Shown: one piece after another, positions 11,864-40,372 of the stretch
Position numbering within the stretch: position 1 is the first letter of the stretch
How the letters are laid out: each line of letters begins with the position of its first letter
DNA from: Zarea fungicola
Taxonomy: Eukaryota; Ascomycota; Sordariomycetes; Hypocreales; Cordycipitaceae
NCBI GenBank assembly: GCA_900169235.1
Contig: FWCC01000383.1
Coordinates: 1 to 61,481 of the forward strand
Direction: 5' to 3'
DNA: 61,481 nucleotides
Made by a program: the position numbers and the translations under genes
Notes under the pieces: model-generated
Seen by the model: the letters and a program-made list of their open reading frames with translations, nothing else
Told to the model about the DNA's origin: nothing
Databases searched by the model: none

Positions 11864-13423
11864 GATACGAGATATTTGGAAATGTGGATAGTGCGATTGT
11901 TAATTAGCGGGCCAGCGCAAAATAATATGTCACTGTCAACTTCACAAAAGTACCAACGGGGCGGGGTGAAATCCTCATAGGAGCGGCGCTTAATAAATGA
12001 CCTTTATTGGCTGCGAGCCGCCACAAATGTGCGGCGGCCTCGTAGTGTGTGTGAGAAGAACTTGCAGCATTCTTCAGTGCAAGGATGCAAACAATGGTTC
12101 AAAATTGAAACATCTTTGTGCATTCATGGATAACAGAACTCGCGGGATCCGTGTAGCTCCGCGTAATAAGTCGGGATGTTGACTTGTATATTAAAAATTG
12201 ACTGCAATGAGCATTGCGAAGTTGAGTTTTTTTTTTTTTTTTTTAAATATGAAACTTAAATTTGTGTTTGTTTTCCTTGAATCAACGACTTCAGAAAGCC
12301 ATTGCTTCCGAGTTCAAGTTTCTCCTTGGATCTAAAGCCGTTTTGCCTATCCACTTGACCAGATGCGAGATTCGAACCGCGAAGCTTCCCGACATTCCTC
12401 GCTAGATTACAAACAGCTGTATATAGTGTCCCTGTTTGTCGTTGGATTTTGTGTGATTCCGAATTCCTATATATAAAAGAGGGATTCCTGCCTTTGTTGT
12501 GGCTTCCTTTTCAATATCACCCGCTTACCAATTGCATACCAGCTGACGAAAACACGTAGAAGCACCGTATTAGCCCATGCGTCGTAACTATCTCGTGATC
12601 GTACCAACAACTGCCGCTGGGTGGTCTACAGCCATGATTCCTGTTGTTACCTACTGAGTCAGGTCGAGCAGCTGTTCCTGTGTGGCCTGACTCCTGCCGC
12701 TGATACGAGGTCATCACGGCAACCGTGAAGGAAAGAGGGATTTTGCCTGTTTATTGTTTGCTTTTCCTGCTTTTGATCTTCTGTATGTAAAAGAGGAATT
12801 CCGCCTCTATCCGTAGCTGGATTTCTTTCATCACAACTAACTTACAACTGGCATACATACTGGGAGACACTTCTCTCAGTACCGTGCGACGTAACTGCTC
12901 GTGATAATACCAACAGTACTGGAACTTCAGCCCTTGAGTCACTCCGGTGATTCACAATCTGAGGACATTGGCTTCCCGGTGCTGAATGAAAGACTTAAAA
13001 TTATAAAATAGCTTTTGCCAGGTCATGGCTGGGCCATATTGATCCTCCCTTGAATCCAGAGATGCTGTCATACATGATGCGTCACCGTTGTCAGGCCAAT
13101 TCTGCTTGCAGAGAAAAACAAGCAGGTGATACAAGCCATGCTTCAAGATAGGATGCTAACTTTTGCGAATTCCGAGTCACTTTTGAGTCACTTTGTAGCT
13201 GGCTTGCAGTCATCCTCCAATTTCGGCCAAGTTTGATGAGAACCGTTGGCGCTATCGAACCTTGTTGGCTGGAGCGCAGGCTTTCCAAGCCACACGACCG
13301 TCGATTACATACAGATTGCCAGCTTGATCGCTGTTTGACGGAGTCATTGTATATGCTAGCTTGACTCCTGTTTGATAAGAGTCATATGTAAGTACTGGCT
13401 TGGTGTTGGTAGCTAATAATGTG
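11864..13423. other. Repeat-rich intergenic region between NLR and AAA ATPase genes
   Basis: It contains an 18-nt poly-T tract (about 12227-12244) and two diverged copies of one sequence (see the repeat entry). No coding sequence with family support was seen. A sequence like a tRNA B-box at 12370 does not fold as a tRNA. Confidence 0.5.
12455..12935. repeat. Two diverged tandem copies, about 313 bp apart
   Basis: Blocks in the first copy (about 12465-12610) recur in order in the second (about 12778-12925). They are a TATATAAAAGAGGGATTCC-like block, then an ACCAATTGCATACCAGC-like block, then a CGTCGTAACTATCTCGTGAT-like block followed by ACCAACA. Divergence is high, so this is an old duplication of a non-coding or decayed unit. 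Confidence 0.55.
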
Positions 13424-22857: not shown

Positions 22858-22872
22858 CGGAAGTTGCACCCG
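22858..22872. promoter_or_regulatory. CGG-N9-CCG palindrome upstream of acyl-CoA dehydrogenase
   Basis: CGG aagttgcac CCG, about 170 bp upstream of the ATG. It is an inverted CGG pair of the type bound by Zn2Cys6 dimers. The same spacing recurs in every promoter of the cluster. Confidence 0.7.
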
Positions 22873-23042
22873 AAATCCTCGGAGACTAACTAGTTACTCT
22901 GTCAAAGACTTGGCTCACCTGGGTTCCCGGCAGCCGAACACACCGAGTATGCGCCCGGCACCACTATTCTGATCAACATCTTAAATTAAATGATTAAAAC
23001 GTTACTTCACAATACCAATTGCCGGGACCTATCATTCAATTC

Positions 23043-24398
23043 ATGATAAAATCCTCAGCAAAAATGGCACGACCAATCCCGAAGGCCCTAACTCAACTGA
23101 GCCTTCTTTCCTGCAAGTCAGTAGGGCGACATAGGCGGCCGCATACCAGCCGCTTCTTCTCAGTCACCTGCGCAAGACGCCTCATGGAAACAAGCGGCTT
23201 CTCGGAGACGCAATTGACAGTTCGCGAAGCTGTCAACCAGCTATGTTCCAACTTTCCCAACACATACTGGCAAGAGAGAGACGAAACAGGGCAAGATCCT
23301 AAAGAATTTCACGCCGCCGTAGCCCAGGACGGATGGCTGGGCATAGCACTTCCCGAAGCCATAGGCGGCTCCGGCCTGGGTATTTCCGAGGCAGTGATGA
23401 TGATGCAAACTATTACCGAGAGCGGCGCCGGCATGGCAGGCGCCCAGGCCATCCATGCCAACGTCTATGCAACCCAGCCCCTGGCAAAATTTGGCACAAA
23501 GGAGCAGCTGGAGAACACCATTCCAAACATTGTCCAAGGAAAGTGGCGAGTCTGCTTCGGTGTCACAGAGCCCAACAGCGGTCTCGACACATTAAGGCTT
23601 ACCACGTCGGCCACCAAGCAGCCGGATGGGTCCTATCGTGTAAGTGGCCAAAAGATCTGGATTACCTGTGCGCAGGTTGCGTCCAAGATGATTCTCCTGG
23701 CGCGAACGTCTGCCCTAGATCCCAAGAAGCCGAGCCAGGGTCTATCGCTTTTCTGCATCAGTCTCGACCGCGACCAGCCGGGCTTGGATATGCGCAAGAT
23801 TAAAAAGATGGGAGGAAAGGCGGTCGATGCAAACGAAGTCTTTTTTGACAATTACAGAATTCCCGCCGATAGCCTCATCGGCACCGAGGGACAAGGTTTC
23901 AAGATTATCCTGCATGGTATGAATGCCGAGCGCTGTCTCCTAGCCGGCGAGGCTCTTGGACTTGGCTACGCGGCTTTGAAAAAGGCAGCAGAGTACGCGC
24001 GGGACCGGACAGTGTTCCAACGACCCATTGGCCAGAACCAGGCAATAGCGCACCCGTTGGCAGATGCCTACATGAAGCTTGAAGCCGCCAAGCTGGCCAC
24101 GTACCACGCCGCCAGGCTCTACGATGACAGCAGCAAGGAAGGTGACGCCTCAGGGAGCAGGATCAGCCAGGCGTCGGTGGGTGTTGCATGTAATAGTGCA
24201 AAGTACATGGCAGCGGAAGCGGCCTTTACAGCATGTGAGCGCGCTGTTCTTACGCATGGCGGGATGGGATATGCGGCCGAGTACGACGTGGAAAGATTGT
24301 TCAGGGAGTGTCTTGTTCCGCGCATCGCCCCAGTCAGCCGCGAAATGATCCTAAACTACATCAGCGAGAAGGTCCTTGAGCTTCCTCGTAGCTACTAG
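23043..24398 (+). CDS. Mitochondrial acyl-CoA dehydrogenase
   Basis: 451 residues from ATG 23043 (an ATG at 23064 is also possible), intron-free. The first 40 residues are basic and hydroxylated with no acids (a mitochondrial presequence). The acyl-CoA dehydrogenase core follows: CFGVTEPNSGLDT (FAD/substrate loop), GQKIWITCA, the GEALGLGYAAL helix, DRTVFQRPIGQNQ, and a C-terminal GGMGYAAEYDVERLFRE. Flavoprotein alpha,beta-desaturation of an acyl-CoA, electrons to ETF. The usual YEGT catalytic-base motif is replaced by IAPVSREMI, as in a subgroup of fungal homologues, so the base may lie elsewhere. It is the first gene of the cluster; a short- or branched-chain dicarboxylyl-CoA substrate is inferred from its neighbours. 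Confidence 0.9.
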   Translation: MIKSSAKMARPIPKALTQLSLLSCKSVGRHRRPHTSRFFSVTCARRLMETSGFSETQLTVREAVNQLCSNFPNTYWQERDETGQDPKEFHAAVAQDGWLGIALPEAIGGSGLGISEAVMMMQTITESGAGMAGAQAIHANVYATQPLAKFGTKEQLENTIPNIVQGKWRVCFGVTEPNSGLDTLRLTTSATKQPDGSYRVSGQKIWITCAQVASKMILLARTSALDPKKPSQGLSLFCISLDRDQPGLDMRKIKKMGGKAVDANEVFFDNYRIPADSLIGTEGQGFKIILHGMNAERCLLAGEALGLGYAALKKAAEYARDRTVFQRPIGQNQAIAHPLADAYMKLEAAKLATYHAARLYDDSSKEGDASGSRISQASVGVACNSAKYMAAEAAFTACERAVLTHGGMGYAAEYDVERLFRECLVPRIAPVSREMILNYISEKVLELPRSY

Positions 24399-24517
24399 AA
24401 ACAAACATGGAATTTATATAGACTATGTATAATATAACCAGTTCTTCGGCCCGGTTAAGAAAACTTAGAAAATGAAAATAAATAAAACAATGAAAATAAA
24501 AAATAAACCAGACTTTC

Positions 24518-24532
24518 CGGCTCTGGCAGCCG
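24518..24532. promoter_or_regulatory. CGG-N9-CCG palindrome upstream of MaoC-type hydratase
   Basis: CGG ctctggcag CCG in the 263-bp gap between the acyl-CoA dehydrogenase stop and the hydratase ATG, 130 bp upstream of the start. Same spacing as the other cluster sites. Confidence 0.65.
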
Positions 24533-24661
24533 ATCCCGAGATGGTGAAGCCGGAGCATGAGCTAGCTCGATACTATTCTACCCGAATAAAGTTCCACATA
24601 AGATTCAGGCGGCTGCTCACTACATTGGATTCCCCCCTCGTCTCTGAGTAGCTGCAAGTAG

Positions 24662-25864
24662 ATGGATTCCGCCGTCCACGGAATCATGAAACCGTTTATC
24701 CGGCCCTATTTCGGTGTATCTCACCTCGCATGCCGCCATTCACACAAGCGGTTTTCTAGCACGTCGAGTCGGGATGTTGTCCAGCAGCTTTTGAACCAAC
24801 AAAAAAGCCGTGTCACGACCCGTCGACAAGTTTTAGACGGCAACCAGCTCCAGAAACTGAGTCTCACGCTCAACCGACGACATCTTTACCCGGGGCTTGA
24901 CGTATCAGAAGTAGCCCCGGTGGATGGCACGGCTCTACCACCAGGTTATCATTTAGTCTATTTCACGCCAAATGGGACGGAGCTGGATCTAGGTGCTGAT
25001 GGAACTGATCGGAGCTTCAATGCGCCGGCGCCATTCACTCGACGCATGTGGGCTGGAGGACGCATGAAATGGACCAAAGACTGCCCTTTGCGTGTTGGTG
25101 AGGAAGTCGAAGAGCGCACCGCTTTGCTCGCTGCGGAAGCGAAGAAGAGTCGGGACGGGAGCGACATGATTGTCGTGACTGTCGAGAAGGAGTTCTGGGG
25201 TGCGCGGGGACTCTCCGTCGTAGATCAAAGGTAATGAACATGCACCAATCTAAACTTTCAATGACGCATGTTACTAATTAAAGATCAATAGGTCTTGGAT
25301 ATTCCGCAATGAGCTTTCAGAGCCCGTGAAAAACACAAATGTGCCTTTGCGTTTGATCACTACACCGACAACTATCGAGACTCTGCAGGACTCAACAACA
25401 GGTGAGATAATGTTTTGTGGCTTCTACTCGAATGTCTCACTAAGATGAGATAGGTTTTCCGGAGCGACAAGTGATAATGTCACCGATATCACTTTTTCGA
25501 TTCTCAGCATTGACATTTAACGCACATCGAATACACTACGACGCAGCTTGGAGTCAAGGGGTGGAGAACCATCGAGGTGCATGGACCGCTTAATCTGATC
25601 AACATGCTCGACTACTGGCGTGACGTTCATGCTTCTGATGGTACAGAGGCTGGGGAGATTCAGTACAGAGCATTGTCACCTCTTTTTGCAGGCGAGCGTT
25701 ACTGCATTAGGACTGGCCCTGATTCTCCTGACGAGCGGTCAAAAGGGACTGTCGAGGTTTTGATTGCGAGGGATGACGCGCTGTGCATGAAGGCGGTGAT
25801 TAAAAAGCATAAAGGAGACCGCGACCCTCGGATGAGAATGCTTCCCGCCATTTATCTACACTAG
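24662..25864 (+). pseudogene. MaoC / mesaconyl-C4-CoA (itaconyl-CoA) hydratase-like gene with frameshift
   Basis: Three exons (24662-25230, 25292-25401, 25454-25864) encode a mitochondrial double-hotdog hydratase. There is a basic presequence, an N-terminal hotdog half (LPPGYHLVYFTP, RRMWAGGRMKW) and a C-terminal half with FRFSALTFNAHRIHYD, where the conserved HYD is the catalytic motif region. Between about 25565 and 25580 the frame breaks. ENHRG is read in one frame and VHGPLNLINMLDYW in another, where relatives read RG-x-x-VHGPL. A deletion of 2, 5 or 8 nt would explain it, and the downstream frame is open to the stop. It is either a recent pseudogene or an assembly error. The role is hydration of an enoyl-type dicarboxylyl-CoA. 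Its stop overlaps the 3' end of the convergent regulator gene by 9 bp. Confidence 0.85.
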
Positions 25865-28546
25865 TTGATTCTCTAAAAGCTCCCAGTCTGCTTGTTCTAC
25901 GCCAGTCAGCGAAAGAGACGGATTGTGATAAATCCAGTATAAATCATCTTCGCCTTCGAGTATAATGTCACCCAAGTCTTCGACAGCGGCTGTAGCTGCA
26001 TCTTGACCCTCAAGTACGTTCTCATCCGTCATGTTTTGAGCGGAATCGCCCTGGCCATTCGGCGCCCTGGCCACATCACTAGGTGCAGGCTGACTTTCTA
26101 AATAGAGTGAAAACGGCTGCATGAGCATCTCTGGTTGTGCAATGTCCACGTCTGGCATTTCTGTTTCAAGAGTCAGACTGGAACACATCATATCAATCTC
26201 AGCCAGTCGCTTCGCGGCGGCTCGATTGCCCAGATTGGAAAGGTGCATGAGGATGCTCCGGACGCGCTCGATGCCTTCGTACGCTCTACCCTTGTCTGAG
26301 TTAATTATGACAGCAAGCACAAAGATGAAACCGGCGGAAAAGAGGCAGTCTAGGTCAAGGAAGGCATGCTTGGCTGAATTATTAAACGCCAAGTATTAGC
26401 CAAGAACGGATTCAGAAAGGTGAAGAACGTACCGATAATGTCTCGCTGGCGAAGACCGTGAAGAATAACCAAACTTTTCCGAGCTGCTTCGACGCAAGTA
26501 TCTGCAAGCCGGCGGAGAGTGGGACTCATAGATGTGTGCACATCGTTTCCCCCATTTAGGCTGCTGCGAGCGAGGTACAGCAGGATTGGTCGCACCGCGT
26601 ATATGATATTCTGTAACAGTTAGCAAACAGGACCCGAATAACAATCTAAAGGCCCTCATACTTGATTAGTTGTCAAATGAAGAGACGCAATCGTCCTCGC
26701 CGATGACAATTGTGAGCTGGATAACGGCGCTTCATTGAGTAAGAGGTCCGCTGGGTGCGACCCGCCTGCGATTTCGACTGGCATCTCATTCTCTATTTTA
26801 TGGAGCGATTGTAGGATATCCTGTACCTCTTTGATGAAGGTGGCCTCCGAGTCATTGTTTTGTGAGTAAATGGCTTGTAACGGTCAGTATACTGTATCCA
26901 GACTTATGTGTCTGTGACAAGAGAGACCAACTTGTCGTGATGCGACCAGTGATTTGAGCGAGCTGCACATTGACGGCAATACTGGCGGCAGAGGGATAAC
27001 CAACTTGATCTGCGGGCAGGACTGCGGTAATAGCCGTGTCTGCAATCGACACCGAAAAGCCTACGGCAGCAGCAAGTCTCCTATCCCGGAATCAGCCCAT
27101 AAGCTCAACATTTATTGTCGAGGTCGACCAACCGTTCTTGCATATAAATGGACCACCAAAGTCGGTTTCGGTGCACTGCTTCTGAGCGTTTGAGACCTCT
27201 ATGCGATCTAGATTTGTGAAAGGAGAGGCCGAGCGATAAACGGAGCGCCATACTCGCCTGCACCAATGTTAGCTACTTTGTCGCCAGGTATGTTTCGAGG
27301 TAGCTACTCACGTAGAGATAGGCATCCTCTTTTCGGTCTGCTATCTGTAGGTAAAGAGCGATCAACCCCATCAACTCAACCCCCAAAACTCCCTGCTTTC
27401 GCAGGCTACTAAAATCGGGTATCCGTTTCAGTGCCTCCCGGAAGAACTCGTCACCTGGCGGTTTAGACATGTCATCCCACTTTGCTTGAAGAAGCCTCCC
27501 AATGGCGAAAACCAAGAGGCACTCAGCATACCACAGCTCCGGCACGGTACCATCGGGCGCATTGTCATCAAAGAGGGACGATAAACGGTCCAAGAAGGTT
27601 CTAACATCAAAAAGATGCTGCGAAATACCCACGTTGAGGACGACAATGTCTAGCATGCTATACGCATCACCTTCTGTGGGCCAGTATTTGATCTTGTCGA
27701 CACCTAGCTGGCAGGCAGACCTCGGCGTAGCATCGGCAGCATTAGCGGAACCCGGGTCTTCGCCTGCGTTCGCACGTGTTCGTTCAGTCAATAAAGTCCT
27801 CAGCTCAGAGCTAAATGTCTCACTGGACGAGAGAGACGTCGCAGGCGCAAGAGCTAGAGAAAGGCAGTGAAATCATTAGCAAGCTGTGATAGAGGTAGGA
27901 ATATTCATCGGCAATGTCGCGCTCACCTCGCAGCGGCCGGTCCGTCTTTGGGCTCGAGGTCGCGGTCGGCGAGCGGAGCACATTGTGATGTGGCGAGTGA
28001 GCTACTAGCGACGGCTGCTTCTGTTGCTGCGTATCCCGGCTACTTCCTCCAGCACTATCATCTGGCTGGCTCTCGGATAGCGATGGTGTCCTCGGAGCTC
28101 CTGGCGATGCTAGGTTTTGCGCCGAGGTAGGTCGCTCAGAGTGTGGCCGAACAGCTTTTATACGCGACGTTAGCAGCTTGTCTTGCGTGGTTCAAAAGAC
28201 CCGATAACACGTACTGTCGCGATTCTCGTATTGTGCTACCTTCTCTTCTAGAGTGCGTATATGGCTGGTGGCGAGTTGGTCAGCGAACATAACGGGAGGG
28301 TGACCACGCATGTTACCCAGCGTACTTGATTGGGTAGAGTCTCCGCCTCGATGGCCGCGTAAACACACAATCCAGGCCGCGCTTGACACAATACACGCAA
28401 GGCTGCGTGCCGGAGCACTTAACCTTCTTGTCACGGCACATGACACATGCTGTCGACGTGCGCGGGCCGATGCCGAGCCCGTCACCGCGTCTGGGACGGC
28501 GTGGTGCCTGTCCCGTCCTTTGACCCGAGTCTGGGCTAGTCTGCAT
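25856..28546 (-). CDS. Zn2Cys6 transcription factor, likely cluster regulator
   Basis: Nine exons give about 740 residues: 28546-28326, 28264-28215, 28154-27927, 27853-27312, 27257-27133, 27080-26932, 26873-26662, 26610-26433, 26373-25856. The phases agree across all junctions. The zinc cluster at residues 34-62 is C-x2-C-x6-C-x5-C-x2-C-x6-C. A short coiled-coil segment (HIRTLEEKVAQYENRD) follows and should set dimer spacing. The middle homology region (fungal_trans) includes RNRLWWSIYMQERRLAAAVGF. The C-terminus is acidic and probably activating. It is divergent from the CitE-type gene; the shared promoter contains a CGG-N9-CCG site, so autoregulation is plausible. Confidence 0.93.
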
Positions 28547-28705
28547 AGGGAAATATTTGAGCCGGGTTTATGTCATTGGCAACCGCTTCCGAGGTATCGG
28601 TTATAAAATGCGGGCAGCTGCAGGTCAGAGAATTGCATTGAAGGGTGACGGGTCCTTTTGCAAGTTGGAATGCACAGCGAGGTTGTGGAGGCCGGCCCGG
28701 AACCT

Positions 28706-28720
28706 CGGATGTAATTACCG
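28706..28720. promoter_or_regulatory. CGG-N9-CCG palindrome in the regulator/CitE divergent promoter
   Basis: CGG atgtaatta CCG, 160 bp from the regulator start and 183 bp from the CitE start. It is nearly the same sequence as the site upstream of the E2 gene. Confidence 0.75.
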
Positions 28721-28902
28721 AAATAATTGCCGGATTTGTTCCTGTGAGTTTGGCTATTCCAAAACTAGTACTGACGATCCCGGAGGTGATGGAGTACCGG
28801 CCGGCCATGTACTTCTCCTTGTGGACGCCGCATTGAACTGATCTTGAATTATATTATTGATATGAATGTTTTCGCCAATGCCCCTTGTTAGAGTTTTCCA
28901 TC

Positions 28903-30054
28903 ATGTCACTTTCCACGTACCTTCGTCGGGCGTTACTTTACGGTATGAGACAGTGACAGCATCACGCTAGTGTCGCGTAGTGGTAGAAGGAAGTGCTGAG
29001 AAAAATGCTGAGAAAAATGCAGTGCCTGGATCTTCACAGAAAATGCTGACCAAGTCAAGCACTTACTCCGTTGATTCAGTCATATATGATCTTGAAGACT
29101 CTGTGACCGCTGACTCCAAGGAACAAGCCAGGCAGCTAGTTGCGAATCACATAGCTGGGGACACGATGCAAAAGTCTGCGCGAAAACCTGGTGAGGTATG
29201 CGTGCGCATCAATGCAGTAGAAACTGGCCTGGCTTTACAAGATATTACTGAATTGGTATGAAAATGAGGCCGATTCATCATCTTACGTATGCTGAATGTC
29301 AATTGGGAAGATACGAACTGGCAGAAATAACCTCGATACAGTCGTTGTACCAAAGGTTCAGTCGGCAGCAGATTTGCATTTTGTCGCAGATTTTATTCGT
29401 CATATTGCCCCAGAGAGGAACATTTTTAGACCTGGGACGAACAGTCTTACTGAACAGTCGGGGAATGCGTCTCAGCTGCGGCCTCTTCATGTCATCGGGC
29501 TGATCGAATCCGCCATGGGCCTTGCCAATGTATTGGAAATATGCCGAGCAGGCCAGAAGTTGGGATTGGCAGGACTCGGATTCGCTGCCGAGGATTTCAT
29601 GGCCAGTGTCGGGCTGTCAAAGCTGCCAGATCGACGGGAGGTGCTATTTGCACGGTCTACAATTGTCAATGCTTGCAAGGCATATAATCTTCCTTCCATT
29701 CTTGACATGGTGTCAGTCGATGTGAGCCAGAAAATCGATGATACGGCTTTGGAAGACGAAAGCAGGGAGGGCCGAAGCCTTGGCTTTACTGGCAAACAAG
29801 CTATCCACCCTTCTCAGATTGAGATTATTCAGCGCGCTTTTGGTCCAACCGCAAACGAAGTGACATGGGCAACACAGGTCTATTTGGGCGATATTGAATC
29901 ACAGAAACAGGGCAAGGGATCTTGGAAACTGAATGGACGCATGATTGATGCACCTGTGGTTAAATCAGCTATTTCTCTGCTTGAGAGAGCTCAGGCCTGT
30001 GGCATAAATCTCGATGACCGGGTTGCAAGATTAAAACCAGAAAGGGGAGATTGA
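28903..30054 (+). CDS. HpcH/CitE-family lyase, citramalyl-CoA lyase-like
   Basis: Three exons (28903-28942, 29023-29255, 29311-30054) give 338 residues. Joining restores the family start RRALLYVPGSSQKMLTKS. Other landmarks are the YDLEDSV metal/CoA region, VRINAVETG, VVVPKVQSA, HVIGLIESAMGLAN (the Mg-binding Glu) and GFTGKQAIHPSQIE near the C-terminus. CitE-like enzymes cleave (S)-citramalyl-CoA to acetyl-CoA and pyruvate, or malyl/beta-methylmalyl-CoA to glyoxylate and an acyl-CoA. The N-terminus is short and basic and could be a weak mitochondrial signal. The context (hydratase, dehydrogenase, 2-oxoacid dehydrogenase) fits the last step of a dicarboxylyl-CoA pathway. Confidence 0.92.
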
Positions 30055-30210
30055 ATGGGTTTCTATGATGATTTAAGCTGATGTTACATGGGCTCACAGT
30101 AACAACGGGAAGATGAGTCACAGCCATGATTCGCGCGCCATGCAGTAGATATAGCCATCGGTAATGCTGGACCGGACATATGGAAGCAAACATGTAATGC
30201 ATTGTATTTT

Positions 30211-33200
30211 CTACTCTTCAATGTTAAAAATATCATGAAGTAGCTGATCTTCTTCCGCATAGTGAAGGCTCTTGATACCTGTAGCGGAACTGGCGCTCGG
30301 TCCGCGACCTGCATAGAGCACCCGACGGCCAACATGATGCTTTGTCTCACTCAGGACTGTGTCTAACCGATCGCGTACATAATGCCACGCCCCGCCATTG
30401 TAGTGTTCCTCCTGTGCCCAAACAATTGTTTTCGCATTCTTGTACCGGTCGAGGTTCGCCCTCACCTCTTCCCAGGGGAAGGGATGAAGCTCCTCTATTA
30501 GCGTAATGGCCACGTCCTTGAACCCTAGCACCTCTCTGTGCTTTTGAATTGCGGCGTAGACTTGGCCGGAGCAGAGAATTACACGTTGAATTGCCTCCGG
30601 ATCGGCGACGGTGCGTCCGTGCTCAGGATCCGTAATGACTGGTTGGAAGGTTGAAGAGCCAGTGAAGTCAGAAATATCGGAACGAGTTAATGGGTGCCGA
30701 AGAAGAGACTTGGAGAAGAAGACGATGAGCGCTATATGCAGGTTAGCAAGTCGGGTCTACATATTTGCCTTCAGGAATAACAGCAAAGTTTGGAGACTGT
30801 CTGGAAACGGTCCAGACACTCATATATCCAATGGTGGAGCGGAAGGACTGGGTTAATACATACGCTTTCTGTATTCTCTTCGCATCTGTCGACGTAGGAC
30901 ATGAAAATAGTTGGCAGGTGTAGTGATGTAGACTACTGACATATTTTCACATTGATGTGCACGCTCGGGTTTGGTCGGATATTTCCTGCCCTCCTCGGAG
31001 CACAGCATCAAGAAGCGCTCGATGCGAGCAGAAGAATGCTCGGCTCCTTGGCCATCGTATCCATGAGGTAAAGAGAGGACGATTCCAGATCGGTCAATCC
31101 ATTTAGTTTCCCCGCTGGCGATAAAGTTGTCAATCATGACTTGGGTGTTATTTGCAAAGTCTCCAAACTGAACCTCCCACATGACAAGCGAGTTCGGATC
31201 AGCCAAGGTCATGCCATACTCGAAACCCAAGGCACCAAACTCGCTCAGTGGTGAGTTCTCAACCTCAAATGGTGCCTGGTTTGCGGCAAGATACTTCAAA
31301 GGTGTCCAAGATTCGCCGTTTTCTTGGTCATGTAGTACAGCATGACGCTGCGAAAAGGTTCCTCTCTGGACATCCTGTCCCGTAAGACGTACAGGATGGT
31401 CTTCGAGACACAAAGTTCCGAAAGCCAAAGCCTCTGCAGTTGACCAGTCAACAATTCCACTTTCTAGGGCCCTCAGCCGCCCTGTAAGAATTCGCTCCAG
31501 ATTTGCATGTAGCTGAAAGCTATGTGGAACGCTCAGAGCCTTGGTTGCCACCTGCTTAATAGTCGATTCATTGACGGCTGTCGTCGCAAGGGGCAATGTT
31601 TTGGCCTTGAGGCTCTCGGGAGACTTCAGTGCATGCCAGGGTTCTGTAAATGTGTGTCGGAACGAAACGAAGTCTTTGCTGCTCTCGTATACCTCGGTGA
31701 GGCGGTTCCATACGCTTTCGCGCAAATCGTCAATCTCTGTCTTGGTAAAAGAACCCTCGGCCACCAGCTTCTGAATGTACTTTTCTAGCGTAGGTGTTTG
31801 TGAGGCGACTTTCTGATACATCAACGGCTGCGTAAAGCTCGGCTGGTCAAACTCGTTGTGGCCAACCTTGCGGTAACAGATGATGTCTACAACGCAATCA
31901 CTATGGAAAATGGCCCGCCAGTCGGCTGAAAGTTTGCAGAGAAATACCAGAGACTCTGAATCGTCCGCATTGACATGAAAAATTGGTGCGTTGACGACTT
32001 TGGCGACATCCGAAGCATACGTGGTCGACCTAGACGAGTGCACATCCGTCGTGAACCCGACCTGGTTGTTAACAATAAACCGAACAGTGCCGCCCACATC
32101 ATAGGCTGGCAATCGAGACAAGCCCAAGGTCTCGTATACAACGCCCTGACCCGCTATAGCAGCATCACCATGCAGCGTGACACACATGTTTCTCTTCTTT
32201 TCTGGGTCGTTGTGCAGCCGTTGGTTTGCAAATGCCTTTCCTGTGGCGACTGGGTCAACGGCTTCCAGGTGCGACGGATTTGCAAGGACAGAAATGTCTA
32301 CAGTGCGGCCTGCAGGAGACACCCGCTGGCCGTCGTGACCGAGATGGTACTTGACATCACCTGCCATATTTCGAATCATGTCTGAGCGGACGCGTCCGGC
32401 AAACTCGGCAAAGATTGCCTCCGGTTCTTTGCCATAGACAGTCCCTAGCATGGTGAGCCGCCCGCGGTGACAGCTTCCGATGGTGATATTTTCAACGCCA
32501 TGGACGTCGACGCTGTGATCAATCATGGACATGACACCGGGCACAAGGCCTTCGGAACCGTCCAACCCGAAGCGCTTCTCGTTCGGGAACTTGCTGGCAA
32601 GAAAACGTTCAAAAGCCGTCGCCCAGATAAGCCCATTCAGAATCTGACGCTTTTCTGCCTGCGAAAAATTGAACGGGCGCGGTATCTCAAGGCGATCTCG
32701 GAGCCAGTCACGTTTGGCGCGATCCGGGATGTGTTGATATTCAACTCCATAGCTACCGCAGTACCTCTCCTCACAGGCTGCTATAATTTCACGGAGCGTC
32801 ATTGATTGACGGTCTTTGGTAGCATAGCGAGGAAGTATGCCGGGGCCGAGTTTGAGCCGGCGATCCAAGTCCCGCTCCGTGAAGCCGTAATGGGTTGGCT
32901 GAAGCTCGACGGGGCACTCGGAACCATCGTTGCCAGAAATACCGTCCAGGGCGTTCAAGTTTGTGCCTAGGGGGTCTGTCTTGGCATAGTAATGTCCTTG
33001 AGACTGGTACGCGCGCACTAGATTCTGAACGTTGAGGTGAAATGGAACGTCGCCAGTTTGATCGGAATTGAGCGACGTGACCGGGGGTTGGCGGGAAGAT
33101 ATTAGACCTGGAGGTAGCTGGAAGGTTTCAGATGCAGGGCGCGACCGATCTTCCATGTTACGAAAATATGTTCCCCAAGAAACATGTACTGAATCTGGGT

Positions 33201-33535
33201 TACGTTTCCATGCTGTGAACATCTCATCAATGTAACTGGCTGAGCCGCCGTGGAGGAAAGACTCTGCACTGTTCTAGGCAAAGTAGGTATTAGTACATTG
33301 CACATGTTCTCTCTGTGCCTCTGAACTTATTTACCGGATGACTATTCTCATCCAGATTAGACAATCCAGTCTCGAATGAAGGATTTTGAAGACGGTAGTT
33401 GTCAGCAGTACGGCCCCTGTTCTCAGCCAATGCCTCCGCAGCAGATGCAAACATCCTTTGAGTGCATCGTCTGTTTAGTGACTTCATGCAGGGGAACTTG
33501 AGAACGTGGCCACAGTTAGCCATCTGGCGCCGCAT
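30211..33535 (-). CDS. 2-oxoglutarate dehydrogenase E1-like (paralogue in cluster)
   Basis: Three exons (33535-33335, 33273-30864, 30731-30211) give about 1043 residues, the normal E1 length. It has a basic mitochondrial presequence, the FLHGGSASYIDEMF N-terminus, the ThDP region LHGDAAIAGQGVVYET and IVNNQVGFTT, the conserved NPSHLE, FGDFANN and a C-terminal RGPSASSATG. One active-site loop differs from the classical MPHRGRLN: here it reads SCHRGRLT. Oxidative decarboxylation of a 2-oxo acid to an E2-bound acyl group. Finding a second-type E1 inside a cluster with its own E2 points to a substrate other than 2-oxoglutarate. E3 would be shared with the housekeeping complexes. Confidence 0.93.
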
Positions 33536-34303
33536 TCTCAAAGGATCCCTAACGATCAGCGTACTCCGAGAACGGAACACTGTCTTGAATTCGATTTTTC
33601 AAAGTTTGCGGGCTCTTAAACGTCTGGTGATTATCGGTAATGCCCAGCGCGGATTAGACGCAGGTACTGAGCGCCACAAGAAGAGTAAAAAAGTAACCTA
33701 GATGATATTGCAATGATACTCCAGTGTTCTATACATGTTTCAACATCCGGAATTAATCTTTCTCCGAAATCCAAGCTGACGATAAGAAATATCTTTACTT
33801 CTCCATTGTAAAAGTCAGAACTCGGACCGAACGATGGTCGGCACAGGCTGTGTTAGTCGTAGGCTGGGGTCGCCCGGAATTTGAAGCCGAGACCTGTCCT
33901 AAGGCGGAGACCGCTGTAATGGCCCCGGTCTTTGGCGTATTGGACACTAAGAACTTAGGCTATGAGTTAACGGCGCATTATGCTTGTGGCCGGACGATTC
34001 CATCAGAAGGAGGGCAGGGGGGGAGTGAGAGTGCTCTGACATGTAGAGGAGCTACAAAGCCTACGGCGAAGGTCTCAAAGACTATTGGGTCACCGGCGAT
34101 ATACATTTGAAAAGTTCCTGAACATTAAGTAGATAGACCTGTATTCAAATGTGACCTTTTAATTAATCGTGGCGAAAACAGATATTTACTGGTTCTTTTT
34201 AATACAAATTTCTAAACGTCTATGTTCTTTTCATACTCTAGCAATCAAATCGTGCGTTCTCAAGATACCACATAAAATTTGCTCTACTTCTCCTCTCCAC
34301 CCC
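33536..34303. promoter_or_regulatory. E1 promoter region / E2 3' flank
   Basis: 768 bp. Apart from the CGG-N9-CCG site at 33875-33889, I see no gene or repeat. Confidence 0.5.
33875..33889. promoter_or_regulatory. CGG-N9-CCG palindrome upstream of E1
   Basis: CGG aatttgaag CCG, about 340 bp upstream of the E1 start. Confidence 0.65.
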
Positions 34304-35841
34304 TTACTCGAGGAGCATTCGAGCAGGGTCCTCTATATAGGTTTTGACAATATTGAGGAAAGTTACGGCTTCTCTGTCGTCAATCAATCTGTGGTCATAT
34401 GTTACAGTAATGTACATCATCTACCAAAGTCATCATCAGCTCGGGCATCTCCTGCAGCCATTTAGGGAGCACTTACAGGCCGGATTTCGGGCTTGCCGTG
34501 GACCGCAATTACACGGTCCTTGATGGTATTCATGTTGAATACCGCTGCCTGCGGGAAATTGATGACTGGTGTTCCAAACAGAGAGTTGAAAATACCAGGA
34601 TTGCTGATAGAGAAGTTGCCACCGTTGAGATCTTCCATGGTCAATTTGGATTCACGCGCCTAGAGGCGAAGCCAGATGTTAGTAAAAATAAAAAAAGAAT
34701 AAGAGAATCGCTTACCTTTTGTGCCACAACAGCAATCTGCCTTTCAAGTTCGACGATGCTTAACAAATCACAGTCCTTTACAACCGGCGTTACCAGACCT
34801 TTAGGAGAAGAGACAGCGATGCTGATGTCGACGTGGTCTCGATAAGTAATGATCTCCCGCTCTGAATCAATGCTGGCATTGATCTGAGGGACTTGCTTTG
34901 CAGCAAGAGCTGTAGCCTTTGCAAATGCTCCCATATAGCCTAGCCTTACACCGTGCTTCTCTGCCACCTCGTCCTTAAACTTTGCTCGCCACTGAAGTAG
35001 AGCGGTCATGTCTATTTCTTGAACCGTTGTTACCGAAGCACATGTGTCCTGAGATTGCTTGAGGCGTCGTGCGATCGTCTTGCGCATTCTTGACATTTTC
35101 TCCTGTCGTAATGGTTAGTAGCTTCAAAGAGATCCGAGATCACCTCAGCGCTGGCAGACACTGGAAACTCACTTCCCGCTCACCTCGAAGAGGCGGCTCA
35201 CGGTTCACTGCTACAAGCTTGTCGGCTATTTGTGGTGATTGACTTGCCGGTGAGTTGTTTGCTCGGATTGCCGGCTCGGTCTGGCTTGCTTGTTTGATTG
35301 CCGAATTTTCTTGCATTGTATACTCGCTTTCTGTTGCCTTCTGAGGTGCGGGCACCGGAGTAGATTCTGATGCTTCCTTGGAAGGTTTTGTGCATTTCTC
35401 ATGAAGTATAGCTGCACCCGCAATTGGAGTCTTTTGTATGCGCGCGATGGACTGGCCGACCGTAACTACATCACCCTCTGCGGCCAGCAGCTCAGCAATG
35501 AATCCCCCTTCGGCCGCGTTGACTGGCACGTCAATCTTATCTGTCTCGATGTTTGCAAACTCTTCATCTTCTTCGACTCTGTCTCCGATTTGTTTATGGA
35601 TGTTTGCGATTGTGCCCTCGCTGATGGACTCTGCCATTCGAGGGACATTGATGATGTAGTCTTGATATGGAGCTGAACTACAACTTAAATGACGTCGGCA
35701 CAGTATGGTCGGAGATTCGGTACTTTGGTTTTCATGCTTCAATTGCATTGCTGTTATGGCAGAAGGTGCGTGACGCATTGCCACAGACCGTATTGGTCGA
35801 AGGTGGACTGCCATCCATCGGCATCCTGTTTTCGGGGGCAT
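34304..35841 (-). CDS. Dihydrolipoyl acyltransferase E2 of a 2-oxoacid dehydrogenase complex
   Basis: Four exons (35841-35173, 35102-34716, 34659-34477, 34420-34304) give 451 residues. After a presequence, an N-terminal lipoyl domain begins at about residue 62 ([12 protein letters not shown], lipoyl Lys in ETDKIDVPV). A Pro/Ala/Glu-rich linker follows with no obvious E3-binding subunit domain, as in KGD2. The catalytic domain starts at [13 protein letters not shown] and contains [20 protein letters not shown]. The active-site motif is [11 protein letters not shown]; relatives have DHRxxDG, so His and Asp are kept but Gly is Asp. It works with the adjacent E1 to make an acyl-CoA. Confidence 0.93.
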
Positions 35842-35983
35842 CTTGGTGTTGGACGCAGAATTGAACACGAAGATAGTTTTTCAAAAATGGAAAATGAATG
35901 GGCTCATCAGCAGAGTAAATGGTTCCACTACGTTGGAGCCATCTTTCTCTCTCGGTTGTGACACCGGGCCATGTAAGGTCCTT

Positions 35984-35998
35984 CGGATGTTTCTTCCG
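35984..35998. promoter_or_regulatory. CGG-N9-CCG palindrome upstream of E2
   Basis: CGG atgtttctt CCG, within a perfect 6-bp inverted repeat TTCGGA-N7-TCCGAA (35982-36000), 143 bp upstream of the E2 start. The rest of 35842-36285 shows no gene. Confidence 0.8.
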
Positions 35999-36285
35999 AA
36001 AACTTGGCCCGGTTTCGGGTCTGCATGTGGGCTAACCTCTGTGGCCCGGCTCTTACAATCTGAGTGTCATGTAAGTCCGGGTCTTCAAACTACAATAACC
36101 ACATTTGTCTGGGTGCCAGGTTATACGATGATTATCTTTCGATAACATTATTGCAAAACTTATTCCCCGGTCATCAGTTACACGACTTGGCAGTGCAAAA
36201 ATGAGAACGACTAAAACAACAAGATTTATTGGCATCTACAACTAACTAGATGGGGCTGTGAGTGTGCCATATTCTTGGCACTGAA

Positions 36286-37713
36286 CTAAAGAATGTATCG
36301 GAATGCCTTGTCCTGCCGATCGGTCAAGTCCGAATCAACAGAAACGCCGCTCTGAGTGCCAGAAGCGTCCGCTTGGCTATCAACTGCGTAGTCAATATTG
36401 CCCTCTGCTGCCTTTTTGTCTCGTAAGTTGTTTTCTCTGTTCCTCAAGAACATATAAAGAGCCAAAGTAGCCATGAGGTAGACCAAAGACGCAATGCTGA
36501 GAATGCAGCCCTTGACGTAGCGGGGCGCTTCATGCTCAGTCCAAGCCTGGGGCGAAATGATACAGCCAATGCAATAAGCCACAAAAAAGATTGTGGTAGT
36601 TACAGACTTTTTGGTGTTTCCTTTAACGTTGCTGGCGATGAGTACCGAGCAACTGCTGAGCAAACAAGTAACGGCATTGGCCATCCAGGTCGAAACAACG
36701 ATGCCCCAAGGTTTCGATGCCGGTACGGTAAGAAGCAATATCACTCCGATGAGGGGTATACAAGTCAGAAATAGGGCGGTACATGTGCAACTGTACTTTC
36801 CCTTGATGAGGCGCGGGACAGAAGCTCCAAGCCAGGTGGTCAGGATGTTGATCGCACCCCCGGGCAGTCCCACAAGCATTGTGGTGTACTTATCGTGACC
36901 GAAGCCATTAATGACAATTGAAGAGAACTTGTAGACAGTATTAGCAAAATATACGATTATGCGCTGCAGATACATATTACTCGCCTTGATGATGGCCGCC
37001 GTGAGCGTGATACCAATTGCCATGGACACATAAAGCCAGGTGTACGGTGATTTGAGTGCTTCTTTAACTTGAGCCCGGTTGAAATCTGCACGATCGCGAG
37101 TGCTTCGATCTATCGCGAGCCTTTTGGTGGCGATGTCCCGCTGGCGTGGTGTCAGAAACCAAGCCGTTGTGGTATCTGCTGGAAGCAGGAAGTAGAACAG
37201 GAACCCCGAGATGATGGTTATACCACCAATAAGGAAGAAGAGCACCCGCCAGGGAGCGATCGAGAGTTTGGCACGGCCAATGCCATACATGATAAGTGCG
37301 TCGATGATTTGAGCAAAACCATTCATGGAATACCATGCAGCAACGCGAACTGGATGCTCTCGACGCTTGTACCATACTGACGTTAGCATCACAAAAGATG
37401 GAGAGACAGCACCTTCGGTCAGCCCAAGAAAAAATCTCGCAGCCATAAGGCCGGCGAAGCTATGCGGAAGTCCAACACAGACACACGTCACACCCCAGAC
37501 AGCAATACTGCAGCCTATAAAGGATTTCAAAGGCAGTCTACTGAGAAGGTATGCAGCGGGCCAATTGGATAGCAGTTGACCAAGGTAAAAAATCGAGACA
37601 CACCAACTGTATTGCTCCCCGGTCAGGTGTAAGTCAGAACGCAGCCCAAAGATGGCAGCGTATGTGATCGATTGTTTGTCCATCAATGGTGTCAAAAGTG
37701 ACATGAATTTCAT
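36286..37713 (-). CDS. Dal5/allantoate-permease-like MFS transporter, damaged or misassembled N-terminus
   Basis: About 475 residues from the in-frame ATG at 37713. Most of the 12-helix MFS fold is present: GEQYSWCVSIFYLGQL, the ARFFLGLTEGAVSPSF motif, FFVAYCIGCIISPQ, and the family C-terminus DLTDRQDKAFRYIL. Dal5-type anion:cation symporters import carboxylates and ureides at the plasma membrane. Helix 1 is abnormal. After MKFMSLLT the sequence jumps to PLMDKQSITYAA, without the 6-8 hydrophobic residues usual there. A plausible start at 37774 (MGSLRKKEELV) is in another frame. So the 5' end has a small deletion/frameshift, or an error. It is the probable importer for the cluster. Confidence 0.85.
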   Translation of the reverse strand: MKFMSLLTPLMDKQSITYAAIFGLRSDLHLTGEQYSWCVSIFYLGQLLSNWPAAYLLSRLPLKSFIGCSIAVWGVTCVCVGLPHSFAGLMAARFFLGLTEGAVSPSFVMLTSVWYKRREHPVRVAAWYSMNGFAQIIDALIMYGIGRAKLSIAPWRVLFFLIGGITIISGFLFYFLLPADTTTAWFLTPRQRDIATKRLAIDRSTRDRADFNRAQVKEALKSPYTWLYVSMAIGITLTAAIIKASNMYLQRIIVYFANTVYKFSSIVINGFGHDKYTTMLVGLPGGAINILTTWLGASVPRLIKGKYSCTCTALFLTCIPLIGVILLLTVPASKPWGIVVSTWMANAVTCLLSSCSVLIASNVKGNTKKSVTTTIFFVAYCIGCIISPQAWTEHEAPRYVKGCILSIASLVYLMATLALYMFLRNRENNLRDKKAAEGNIDYAVDSQADASGTQSGVSVDSDLTDRQDKAFRYIL

Positions 37714-37774
37714 CCGGGAATTCGATTTCACTAGAAGCAGTGACTAATTCTTCCTTCTTTCGTAATGATCCCAT

Positions 37775-38231
37775 TGTATTCGTCCTGTTTTCGCGCTTGG
37801 CGACGAAAATGAATACTTGAATGGGAAGAGGAAGGACCAGAGGGGTACGTAATAAATGAAGCAGACCAAAAGAAACTTGGTGGCCTGTATATTGTATATT
37901 GAGTAAAAGAGATTTAGATGGAAACTCCGGGATATCCACAGCTAACAACATTGTCAATTTGGAGGACGCCGTCTTTATGAACACATTTATGTCTGGCGGA
38001 GAGTCCCCGGATTCCAATGCCGAATTTACAACTGCGGGGTGGCGGCTCGTAGTCTGGGGAACCTGGCTGAAAAGATCAGGTCTTGCAATCAGACCAAAAG
38101 ACCCAGTGAAATGAAGTGGCGAAAATGTCCATGCGGAGGACAACCAAAGGACACATTCCGCTGTTGTGCCACTACTCCAGCACTACTCCGGCGCCATGGC
38201 AGTGCAACCCCACGAAGACATCTGCCGCTTA
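37775..38231. promoter_or_regulatory. MFS transporter 5' region
   Basis: Holds the CGG-N9-CCG site at 38008-38022. No gene was seen. Confidence 0.45.
38008..38022. promoter_or_regulatory. CGG-N9-CCG palindrome upstream of the MFS transporter
   Basis: CGG attccaatg CCG, about 230 bp upstream of the original-looking start (37774). Confidence 0.65.
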
Positions 38232-38798
38232 GGGCCTGATCATGAGATTCAGTCTCAGTCCCATTACCGGGAACCCCACTGTAGCATTAGTTAGCGTAAG
38301 AGGTGGGAATGTTACTTCGTATCCCTTTGCTTCTTGACATCCCTTTAGATGGCATCAACCAGGGTATAGCCAGGCCATTTTAGCTCGCCGCCTTGACCTT
38401 AGAATCTCCATCTATACGCTACCAATAGAAGAGGTTCAACTATCTAATACTAAGAGGTAATTTTCTTATTATTAATAACCTAAAATGAAATAAAGTATTT
38501 ATCTTTTAAAAGCCATTTATAATAGCTTTAATTTATACCCTCTTTTTAGCTAGTAAAATGGTAATAGAAGCTTCATTTTTACTCTATTTTAATCTAATCC
38601 TAGTTATATAGTGAGACTAAGACTGAGTCCCAGCCATTTTGACTAAGACTTGATCTTTCAAAAAACGGGTCAAAAGATGGTAGAAAACCTCGTCACTATG
38701 CCTATTTAGGAGCCTCTTATACTAAACTAGGTAATGATTGACTCTCCGCGAGACTGAGTCTCTAGGCGTCTCATGGACTCAATCTTATGATCTGGCCT
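38232..38798. mobile_element. MITE-like element or DNA-transposon relic with terminal inverted repeats
   Basis: Ends match as inverted repeats. gggcctgatcatgagattca at the left pairs with the reverse complement of the right end at 38776-38798 (19 of 23 positions by eye, mostly transition differences). The interior is strongly AT-rich without coding capacity and has further copies of the motif gagactgagtc. TA dinucleotides lie at or near both ends but the duplication is not exact. RIP-like decay is plausible. Confidence 0.45.
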
Positions 38799-39147
38799 TT
38801 ATGGTCCAGACCTTGACGCCGTGTTCTTATTCACCAGGTCATTGGCTTGAGGAGGTCAGTAATGGAGCTAAAAAATCAACTTTTCCGACCGGGTTTTCTG
38901 GATGGGACTGGCAACAAATCCCGAACCTCATAGCCCAAATAAAAATCACTCCATTACCGAATCTTTGGATCCGAGCCAATCCGCTGATCGGCGAAAAATT
39001 GGTATAATTCAGATTCATTCAGTGCAGGTACCTTTTGCTTTTATAGCGAGATAATAGAGAATGAAATCATCTTCCATGTCTATACCTATTACATGAGCCT
39101 CATTCAATACCTCTGTTGAGTTGCACCTTCTTTTACCCCGTTAAAGA
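38799..39147. other. 5' flank of the carrier pseudogene
   Basis: No gene was seen, and no CGG-N9-CCG site. Confidence 0.4.
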
Positions 39148-39795
39148 ATGAATCAAAAATGTGCTGAAAGTGGCTCTCCGTTGGTCGCAGCTCCCGTCTC
39201 CTGTAATGTGGTCCAGAAGCCACAGTCTCAAGCTCCTCGTACTGTTAATTCACCTCTTTTGAAAAATACGCTTCCCTTCATTAACGTAGGTATTTCCGGG
39301 ATGATTGCAACCCCTGTAATACAACCCATCGATATGATCAAGGTTAGTGGTGGCCGAAGCTGTTGCATAGTGACTGAATCCTGATCACGCGGTCAAGGCG
39401 CGCTTGCAGCTACACGACATTACTCATTTGAGTGTGCCCAAACCTACACCACTGTCGGTAGCTAAGAGTATTCTGATTCGCGGTAGAGCTCTTGACTTCT
39501 ATACAGGCATATCCGCCGGTCTCTTCCGTCAAGGTATCTACACCGACTGGTTGACGCCTACCCAATCATTCGTATCCAGTGCTATCGCTGGTTTTAGCTC
39601 TGCTGTTATAGGTATACCTTTTGATTTTGTAAAAACGAGACAACAACGATAGGCACGGTGCCCTGATGGCAAGCTGGTTGGAAATATCACTCCATGATTC
39701 ATTGTTTCAAAAAAATAGCCGCGGAGGAAGGCTGGTCGCGATTTTATCGCGACTTTGGCACGTTTTATTTCTGAATTGCACCGCACACGTAAGTT
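39148..39795 (+). pseudogene. Mitochondrial 2-oxoglutarate/dicarboxylate-type carrier, decayed
   Basis: Exon 1 (39148-39342) reads PLLKNTLPFINVGISGMIAT and PIDMIK, the first P-x-D-x-x-K carrier signature of the oxoglutarate/malate carrier group. After an intron, exon 2 starts at 39398 (ARLQLHD, PTPLSVAKSILIRG, YTGISAGLFRQGIYT). The frame then skips part of a repeat, shows a second signature PFDFVKTR and stops at 39650-39652. Beyond the stop, homology continues through two more stops (DGKLV, KKIAAEEGWSRFYRDFGT, IAPH at about 39795). The third carrier repeat is missing. So this is a truncated pseudogene. Its likely substrate class (mitochondrial 2-oxo-dicarboxylates) fits the neighbouring 2-oxoacid dehydrogenase cluster. 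Confidence 0.85.
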
Positions 39796-40372
39796 ACTGT
39801 ATATCTGGGTCGGATAGTTGTATAAGACTAACATATTCCAAGCATGATAACGTTGCTAATCGCAGACGACCTTGGTTGGATAACGAGTGGAGGTATCTGG
39901 ATACTAGACGATGTTACGAGTTGCCATTTTGAAAAAAAAAACATTTGAATGTAGCGAGCTTGTAAAGCCCATTGGTATCTAAAAACCCAAGCCGTAAGTT
40001 GCGTCAACAACTTTTGACATCCCTAACAAGAGCGGCCGAAGATGGCGATGCTGGAATGATATCATGGTCTGGCTGATAAGCTGACTTGTTGGTATTCCGC
40101 TCTCTTTGCTGAATTTCATAGCAGTGGCTTTACGTTTTAAGCAGTAAGTATACGTCATTATAATATAGGACCTCTTGTAATAAGGAGTATAATCTTTCTT
40201 CGGAGTCGTTAATGCTATATTAAGCCCACAGACGCGGTTCTAATTTACTCTGCTGACTGGGAAGAGGCTGAGTGACGCGAGGCGAAACTGAAAAGTATCG
40301 ACGCGGCCCAACAGGGTATTGATTAAGCAAAGGTAGGCAGATGACCCTAAACGTTTATCTCAACCAGGTTGC
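39796..40372. other. Intergenic, right edge of the catabolic cluster
   Basis: AT-rich, with no recognisable gene. It may contain further unreadable carrier remains. Confidence 0.4.

Follow-up and report, generated by a model that had tools for sequence, protein, structure and literature searches.

A catabolic gene cluster of Zarea fungicola carries an exact CGG-N9-CCG dyad in each of six intergenic regions. The cluster lies in the window analysed here, which is the entire contig C160 (61,481 bp) of a 43.1-Mb genome in 456 contigs. From left to right its genes, as assigned with Pfam and NCBIfam, encode an acyl-CoA dehydrogenase (ACAD, + strand), a MaoC-type hydratase (+), a Zn2Cys6 regulator (-), a CitE-type lyase (+), a 2-oxoglutarate-dehydrogenase-type E1 (-), an E2 (-) and an MFS transporter (-). 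Judged from the sequence, the motif very probably serves as a genuine operator, with the regulator encoded within the cluster as its likely binder. We consider it probable that this regulator binds the CGG-N9-CCG sites as operators of a pathway-specific regulon.

Six intergenic sites and their rarity by chance

A sequence-only reading of the window had placed the motif at 22858, 24518, 28706, 33875, 35984 and 38008, and there is an exact CGG-N9-CCG match at each of these positions. By the gene models made here, all six sites are intergenic, as that reading held. Gene starts, other than those of the regulator and CitE, were read from the sequence and confirmed as ATG. Measured to the modelled ATG, the sites lie 129-339 bp away (ACAD 191, MaoC 129, regulator 159, CitE 182, E1 339, E2 142 and MFS 233 bp), in keeping with the 130-340 bp given earlier. 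The half-sites are also as described, with CCGA on the right in all six and CGGA on the left in five, and the E2 site is exactly TTCGGA-N7-TCCGAA, a palindrome with three occurrences in the 43.1 Mb. The longer core CGGAWGT-N5-CCGAA is matched exactly by three cluster sites and nearly by two, with the MaoC site as the outlier. In leave-one-out scoring, with the other five sites excluded from the competing positions, no window position beat the held-out sites at 22858 and 33875, while one, three and four positions beat those at 35984, 28706 and 38008, respectively, and 40 beat the MaoC site at 24518. Sequence support is strong for the sites at 22858, 33875, 35984 and 28706, moderate for 38008 and poor for 24518. 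Because so many window positions outscore it, the MaoC site is doubtful by sequence alone. The six sites are present, but the earlier wording, that the motif occurs in every promoter of the cluster, is slightly too strong given the weakness of this one.

The bare dyad is common. The whole window holds 16 copies of CGG-N9-CCG, and the other spacers from 0 to 24 give 7-23, so the raw count is ordinary; a seventh copy within the cluster interval, at 32465, is inside the E1 coding sequence. The unusual feature is therefore the placement of the dyad in the six intergenic regions. In other stretches of the genome (186 kb) CGG-N9-CCG occurs 0.23 times per kb, and in the 54.5 kb of these without long open reading frames (ORFs) 0.09 times per kb, some of the stretches having been fetched around motif matches with the match itself cut out. 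An estimate of one site per 4-6 kb, made from the window, is thus about right overall but too high for non-coding DNA.

Shuffles are the fair test, because Poisson values are uncorrected for the patterns having been drawn from the sites themselves. The six intergenic regions, 3,892 bp in total, went through 20,000 shuffles that preserved dinucleotides, and the choice of motif was allowed for by scoring 75 dyad types, i.e., three arrangements (inverted, everted, direct) at each of 25 spacers (0-24). Any one of the 75 types reached all six regions in 1 of the 20,000 shuffles and at least five regions in 54, and inverted N9 reached at least five in none. With no more than 400 bp upstream taken from each region (2,219 bp in all), six of six was seen in 0 and at least five in 17 of 20,000 shuffles. 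Resampling of the 54.5 kb of non-ORF genome sequence gave six of six in 0 of 2,000 trials and at least five in 0.85%. In the real data two dyad types reach all six regions, inverted N9 and direct N10. These results uphold the view that six of six is unlikely by chance even when the choice of spacing is allowed for, and by background rates, resampling and shuffles alike the motif is less frequent in random sequence of this kind than in these promoters. Over the whole 15 kb, CGG-N9-CCG is not significantly enriched (P 0.14); enrichment is confined to intergenic placement and the extended core.

The same core is found beside a paralogous regulator on contig C83. There the perfect palindrome TTCGGAAGTTACATCCGAA, at 13996, stands between an HpcH/HpaI aldolase gene and the regulator gene, and there are two differences between its 17-mer CGGAAGTTACATCCGAA and the ACAD site CGGAAGTTGCACCCGAA. 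A further CGG-N9-CCG, also between the two genes, is 53 bp from the first. The zinc cluster of this paralog is 49% identical over 47 amino acids to that of the cluster regulator, and the body of the protein 26-35%. Beyond the aldolase gene, this part of C83 (5000-24800) carries amino-acid permease and aminotransferase genes. The pairing of aldolase and regulator is not peculiar to this genome, since a Fusarium kuroshium gene model (P0072) has the same kinds of aldolase and regulator joined in one. Upstream DNA of three further paralogs, on C112, C113 and C359, was also examined. Before the one on C112, TCGGGTTCTGAACCCGA (37895) lies about 455 bp from the zinc cluster and is a 17-base CGG-N9-CCG palindrome except for the centre base. 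Because the same site stands beside the sister regulator on C83, the cluster sites are very probably bound by the cluster's own regulator, which the sequence-only reading had proposed as the candidate and which the C83 core now supports.

The regulator as a predicted binder of paired CGG triplets

The whole modelled regulator matches the zinc cluster family PF00172 at 39.3 bits (cut-off 21) and the fungal-specific middle domain PF04082 at 42.8 bits (cut-off 23). Its best-matching relatives, in Fusarium, are 74-76% identical; protein relatives and gene structure alike indicate a filamentous ascomycete close to Fusarium. Among 12 aligned regulators the six zinc-cluster cysteines are invariant, no insertion or deletion interrupts the zinc cluster, the linker or the run up to the heptads, and a heptad-like IRxLExxVAxYE, which may form a dimerising coiled coil, follows a linker of constant length. 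This unchanged length is as expected if site spacing is conserved in the regulator family. As modelled, the convergent MaoC and regulator frames share 9 bp where their stop codons lie (25856-25864).

When the DNA-binding region was compared with solved structures, PUT3 was the best match (E 6.6e-7), followed by LAC9, GAL4 and PPR1, and the zinc cluster and linker align to PUT3 without gaps. Put3, of the proline utilisation pathway in budding yeast, has CGG-N10-CCG sites, and the spacings are N11 for Gal4/Lac9 and N6 for Ppr1. The likeness to Put3 thus extends to inverted CGG triplets and to control of a catabolic pathway. The cluster differs from the Put3 system in its spacer of 9 rather than 10, its extended YCGGAWGT...CCGAA sequence, its pathway and the position of the regulator gene inside the supposed target cluster. 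Gal4/Lac9 and Ppr1 belong to the same structural class and also use inverted triplets, but they match the cluster regulator less well in sequence and differ in spacing. According to the available text of one paper, well-studied Zn2Cys6 proteins typically recognise paired CGG triplets, inverted, direct or everted, as homodimers (PMC5559640), and the cluster promoters have such paired triplets at one fixed spacing. Zn2Cys6 regulators that act on paired CGG sites are a known class; new are the assignment, the link to the sister regulator and the enzyme set. A review of fungal binding sites gives, in its available portion, CGGN8CGG, CGGN11CGG and others, inverted N9 not among them (PMC5468973), and a search of the PMC literature by motif spelling (bracketed forms excepted) returned no paper with CGG-N9-CCG.

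On the reading that we favour, the CGG-N9-CCG sites would act as operators for a pathway-specific regulon, and the regulator would bind them, most likely as a homodimer, one zinc cluster per CGG triplet and probably in the manner of a Put3/Gal4-type dimer, with a preferred binding sequence of about YCGGAWGT-N5-CCGAA. It would activate the ACAD, hydratase, CitE-type lyase, E1, E2 and MFS genes and, through the site common to the regulator and CitE, its own gene. We infer binding, dimerisation and activation (rather than repression), together with an inducer that is probably an acid or acyl-CoA of the pathway.

Locus tags suggest that in related fungi the genes for regulator, CitE and E1 remain neighbours. 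The cases given are examples matched by eye, not species counts, among 80 listed regulator rows, the best 120 of 4,968 CitE rows and the best 120 of 2,512 E1 rows. In F. sarcochroum the three tags are consecutive (regulator FSARC_5863, CitE 5864, E1 5865), and neighbouring tags are seen in F. proliferatum (FPRO06_03185 / 03184) and F. lateritium (ACHAPI_007558 / 007557). Tolypocladium has the regulator as TPAR_08800 (a partial protein, 43% identical), CitE as 08796 and E1 as 08797. CitE and E1 are QQX98_001341 and 001340 in Neonectria, and NW762_011082 and 011081 in F. torreyae. A CitE scan of a viral contig collection found no orthologous DNA.

Other readings and points against an operator

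It is highly improbable that the sites are a product of chance, i.e., short triplet dyads in six short regions that were chosen post hoc. The ordinary dyad count of the window, the lack of significance over 15 kb and the one weak site are in keeping with chance, but the corrected shuffles, the concentration of the extended core in the cluster and the match at the C83 paralog argue otherwise. A real element might instead have another binding geometry, its unit being a direct repeat, CCG-N10-CCG, or mixed direct and inverted triplets. Direct CCG/CGG-N10 pairs are indeed present in all six regions; in four of these, however, the pair coincides with the N9 site when reading starts one base earlier (CCGG), and the regulator/CitE and E2 regions use neighbouring triplets. 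The C83 site reads TTCGG and so lacks the CCGG reading, and CCGA in six of six, together with the E2 and C83 palindromes, fits the inverted arrangement. CCG-N10-CCG, being largely the same sites shifted by one base, was rejected as the principal description, and we regard a different geometry as very unlikely. There is a small but real likelihood that the sites are bound mainly by another zinc-cluster protein, such as a global regulator or one of the paralogs on C83 and C112. The core upstream of the C83 paralog is consistent with this, and paralogs whose zinc clusters are alike could recognise one and the same site. For a global regulator, though, the core is rare (12 sites in 43.1 Mb), and the in-cluster regulator, whose gene is itself preceded by a core site, keeps company with CitE and E1 in other species, to judge from locus tags.

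Several observations weigh against assigning the sites as operators of the cluster regulator. All six asymmetric sites are oriented alike, with CCGA rightward on the + strand, and the genes lie on both strands; the chance of this is about 1/32. The MaoC site, besides ranking behind 40 other window positions, has 110 equal-or-better matches in 181 kb. Inverted N10, the Put3 spacing, is found in none of the six regions. Paralogous regulators on C113 and C359 have no CGG-N9-CCG within 1.5 kb upstream. Nor do the patterns exceed their controls when counted on both strands of the 43.1 Mb, the control being the same pattern read backwards. The counts were 4,626 vs 8,296 backwards for CGG-N9-CCGA, 1,164 (five in the cluster) vs 1,926 for CGGA-N8-CCGA, 75 (three in the cluster) vs 136 for CGGA-N8-CCGAAA, 42 strand-places (four in the cluster) vs 39 for CGGAWNT-N5-CCGANA, and 6 vs 8 for TTCGGA-N7-TCCGAA. 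CGGAWGT-N5-CCGAA gave 13 strand-places vs 19 backwards; the 13 are 12 sites, three in the cluster and one at the C83 paralog, the last being counted once per strand. Since there is no excess over the backwards patterns, most sites elsewhere are probably chance. The motif is thus without genome-wide enrichment; it is concentrated in the cluster. Of the eight best-core sites outside the cluster and C83, the four that read CGGAWGT-N5-CCGAAA were examined, those on C65, C112 (147512), C208 and C361 being left out. The site on C105 falls within an Exo5 ORF, and those on C113 and C142 are without a Pfam match in the nearby ORFs tried (two and one, respectively). The site on C210 (174874), flanked by ABC-transporter and RabGAP genes, precedes by about 500 bp an ORF that has half a zinc-cluster match (24.3 bits) and no clear tie to the regulator family; this site may be chance or may belong to another regulator bearing such a site. 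The third perfect palindrome, on C417, has no recognised gene nearby.

Cluster genes and a possible pathway

Sites and genes of the cluster, with positions in the window.
Feature	Positions	Strand	Sequence or match	Remarks
Site 1	22858..22872	+	CGGAAGTTGCACCCG(AAA)	ACAD promoter
Site 2	24518..24532	+	CGGCTCTGGCAGCCG(A)	MaoC/FAS1-type hydratase promoter; weakest of six
Site 3	28706..28720	+	CGGATGTAATTACCG(AAA)	between divergent regulator and CitE genes
Site 4	33875..33889	+	CGGAATTTGAAGCCG(AGA)	E1 promoter
Site 5	35984..35998	+	CGGATGTTTCTTCCG(AAA)	E2 promoter; within TTCGGA-N7-TCCGAA
Site 6	38008..38022	+	CGGATTCCAATGCCG(AAT)	MFS transporter promoter
Possible degenerate extra site	28595..28614	-	CGC for CGG, right half CCGATA	regulator promoter; position weight matrix score 17.2; uncertain
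Acyl-CoA dehydrogenase	23064..24398	+	PF02771/PF02770/PF00441	one exon; earlier in-frame ATG at 23043
MaoC/FAS1_DH-like hydratase	24662..25864	+	PF13452	introns; apparent frameshift
Zn2Cys6 regulator	25856..28546	-	PF00172, PF04082	740 amino acids; nine exons; model made here
CitE / citramalyl-CoA-lyase-like (CLYBL-like) lyase	28903..30054	+	PF03328; nearest PDB chain CLYBL	three exons
2-oxoglutarate-dehydrogenase-type E1	30211..33535	-	Pfam, NCBIfam	cluster paralog; signature GSCHRGRL
SucB-type E2	34304..35841	-	Pfam, NCBIfam	lipoyl and catalytic domains; 3' end judged by eye
MFS transporter	36286..37774	-	TIGR00893, best NCBIfam match, below its cut-off

The hydratase is the least certain gene of the cluster. 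Its first exon matches PF13452 at 22.4 bits (cut-off 22) and its last exon has no match to it. FNAHRIHYD and VHGPLNL, which we take to be typical of the hydratase family, are in different frames 35-60 bases apart (frame break at about 25542-25577), a gap too short for an intron, and a frameshift or assembly error is therefore indicated. The gene with the apparent frameshift is also the one with the weakest site. The E1 main exon scores 889.7 bits against the equivalog TIGR00239 (cut-off 770), and CitE, for which a partial protein was used, 96.9 bits against RipC_Ccl (cut-off 375). The genome has one further E1 (on C68, 56% identical) and one further CitE (on C246, 42% identical), which makes the cluster copies seem specialised paralogs. 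When 17 of the best 120 E1 homologs were aligned, the cluster E1 (30856-33273) and 13 relatives, including those of Tolypocladium, Neonectria and Trichoderma, had GSCHRG(R/K)L, and four standard E1s had GMPHRGRL; all 18 rows retain the KYH motif. The substrate may be shifted in the GSCHRG(R/K)L group.

On the left flank of the cluster is an RNase-PH-like ORF just below the Pfam cut-off. At the right edge a mitochondrial-carrier fragment, possibly a gene relic, lies in the stretch 38001-40000, which is low in guanine plus cytosine (0.436). Farther off in the window (8132-11899, - strand) a PNP_UDP phosphorylase ORF adjoins an NPHP3_N ankyrin-repeat ORF, the two possibly forming one NLR-like gene. 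The segment 48056-56566 holds a GH18 chitinase ORF that includes a chitin-binding domain; about 3 kb from it, on the opposite strand, lies an ORF that matches LysM.

Given the enzyme families, the cluster may oxidise a 2-oxoglutarate-like acid by way of a dedicated 2-oxoacid dehydrogenase, ending at the citramalyl-CoA-type lyase; a route from methyl-2-oxoglutarate through methylsuccinyl-CoA to citramalyl-CoA would fit the enzyme set. The fungal itaconate route IctA-IchA-CclA of A. terreus and A. niger resembles the cluster in its hydratase and in a citramalyl-CoA lyase, for which the cluster has CitE as a candidate, and yields acetyl-CoA and pyruvate. It differs in that the cluster has a 2-oxoacid dehydrogenase E1/E2 and an ACAD, and no CoA-transferase match among the ten cluster ORFs searched with Pfam. 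By the available text of PMC6320622, fungal itaconate degradation employs hydratase and citramalyl-CoA lyase, and the A. niger genes are said to be unclustered, unlike those here. In the bacterial itaconate/methylsuccinate clusters of C. necator and P. aeruginosa, an acyl-CoA dehydrogenase, identified as methylsuccinyl-CoA dehydrogenase, accompanies hydratase and lyase, as in the cluster; a CoA transferase has been put forward there as the enzyme that activates the free acid, and regulation is bacterial (PMC12290011, available text). The same text, searched for '2-oxo', makes no mention of a 2-oxoacid dehydrogenase. Among titles and abstract starts there was nothing on such a cluster or such sites in Fusarium, nor on a fungal link between methylsuccinyl-CoA and 2-oxoglutarate dehydrogenase, and the matches listed for methylglutamate-type substrates held no fungal lead.

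A fuller scheme is offered tentatively, as possible rather than probable. The 2-oxoglutarate-dehydrogenase-type complex would convert a branched 2-oxo-dicarboxylic acid, e.g., 3- or 4-methyl-2-oxoglutarate, to methylsuccinyl-CoA, which ACAD, hydratase and the citramalyl-CoA-type lyase would take to acetyl-CoA and pyruvate, a pathway undescribed in fungi. The sister regulator on C83, acting through the same operator, would control the neighbouring genes for permease, aminotransferase and HpcH/HpaI aldolase, which would act on a related branched acid bearing a hydroxyl group. If this scheme is true, several routes for branched acids in Hypocreales would depend on a single Zn2Cys6 family and a single CGG-N9-CCG code. 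The finding also flags a separate group of 2-oxoglutarate-dehydrogenase-type E1s, with an altered active-site sequence, that may be tied to an acid-degradation route, and finding the inducer would name the substrate of the pathway. The uncharacterised family to which the regulator belongs, represented in Fusarium, Trichoderma, Colletotrichum and further fungi, would thereby acquire both a specific DNA code and a list of targets.

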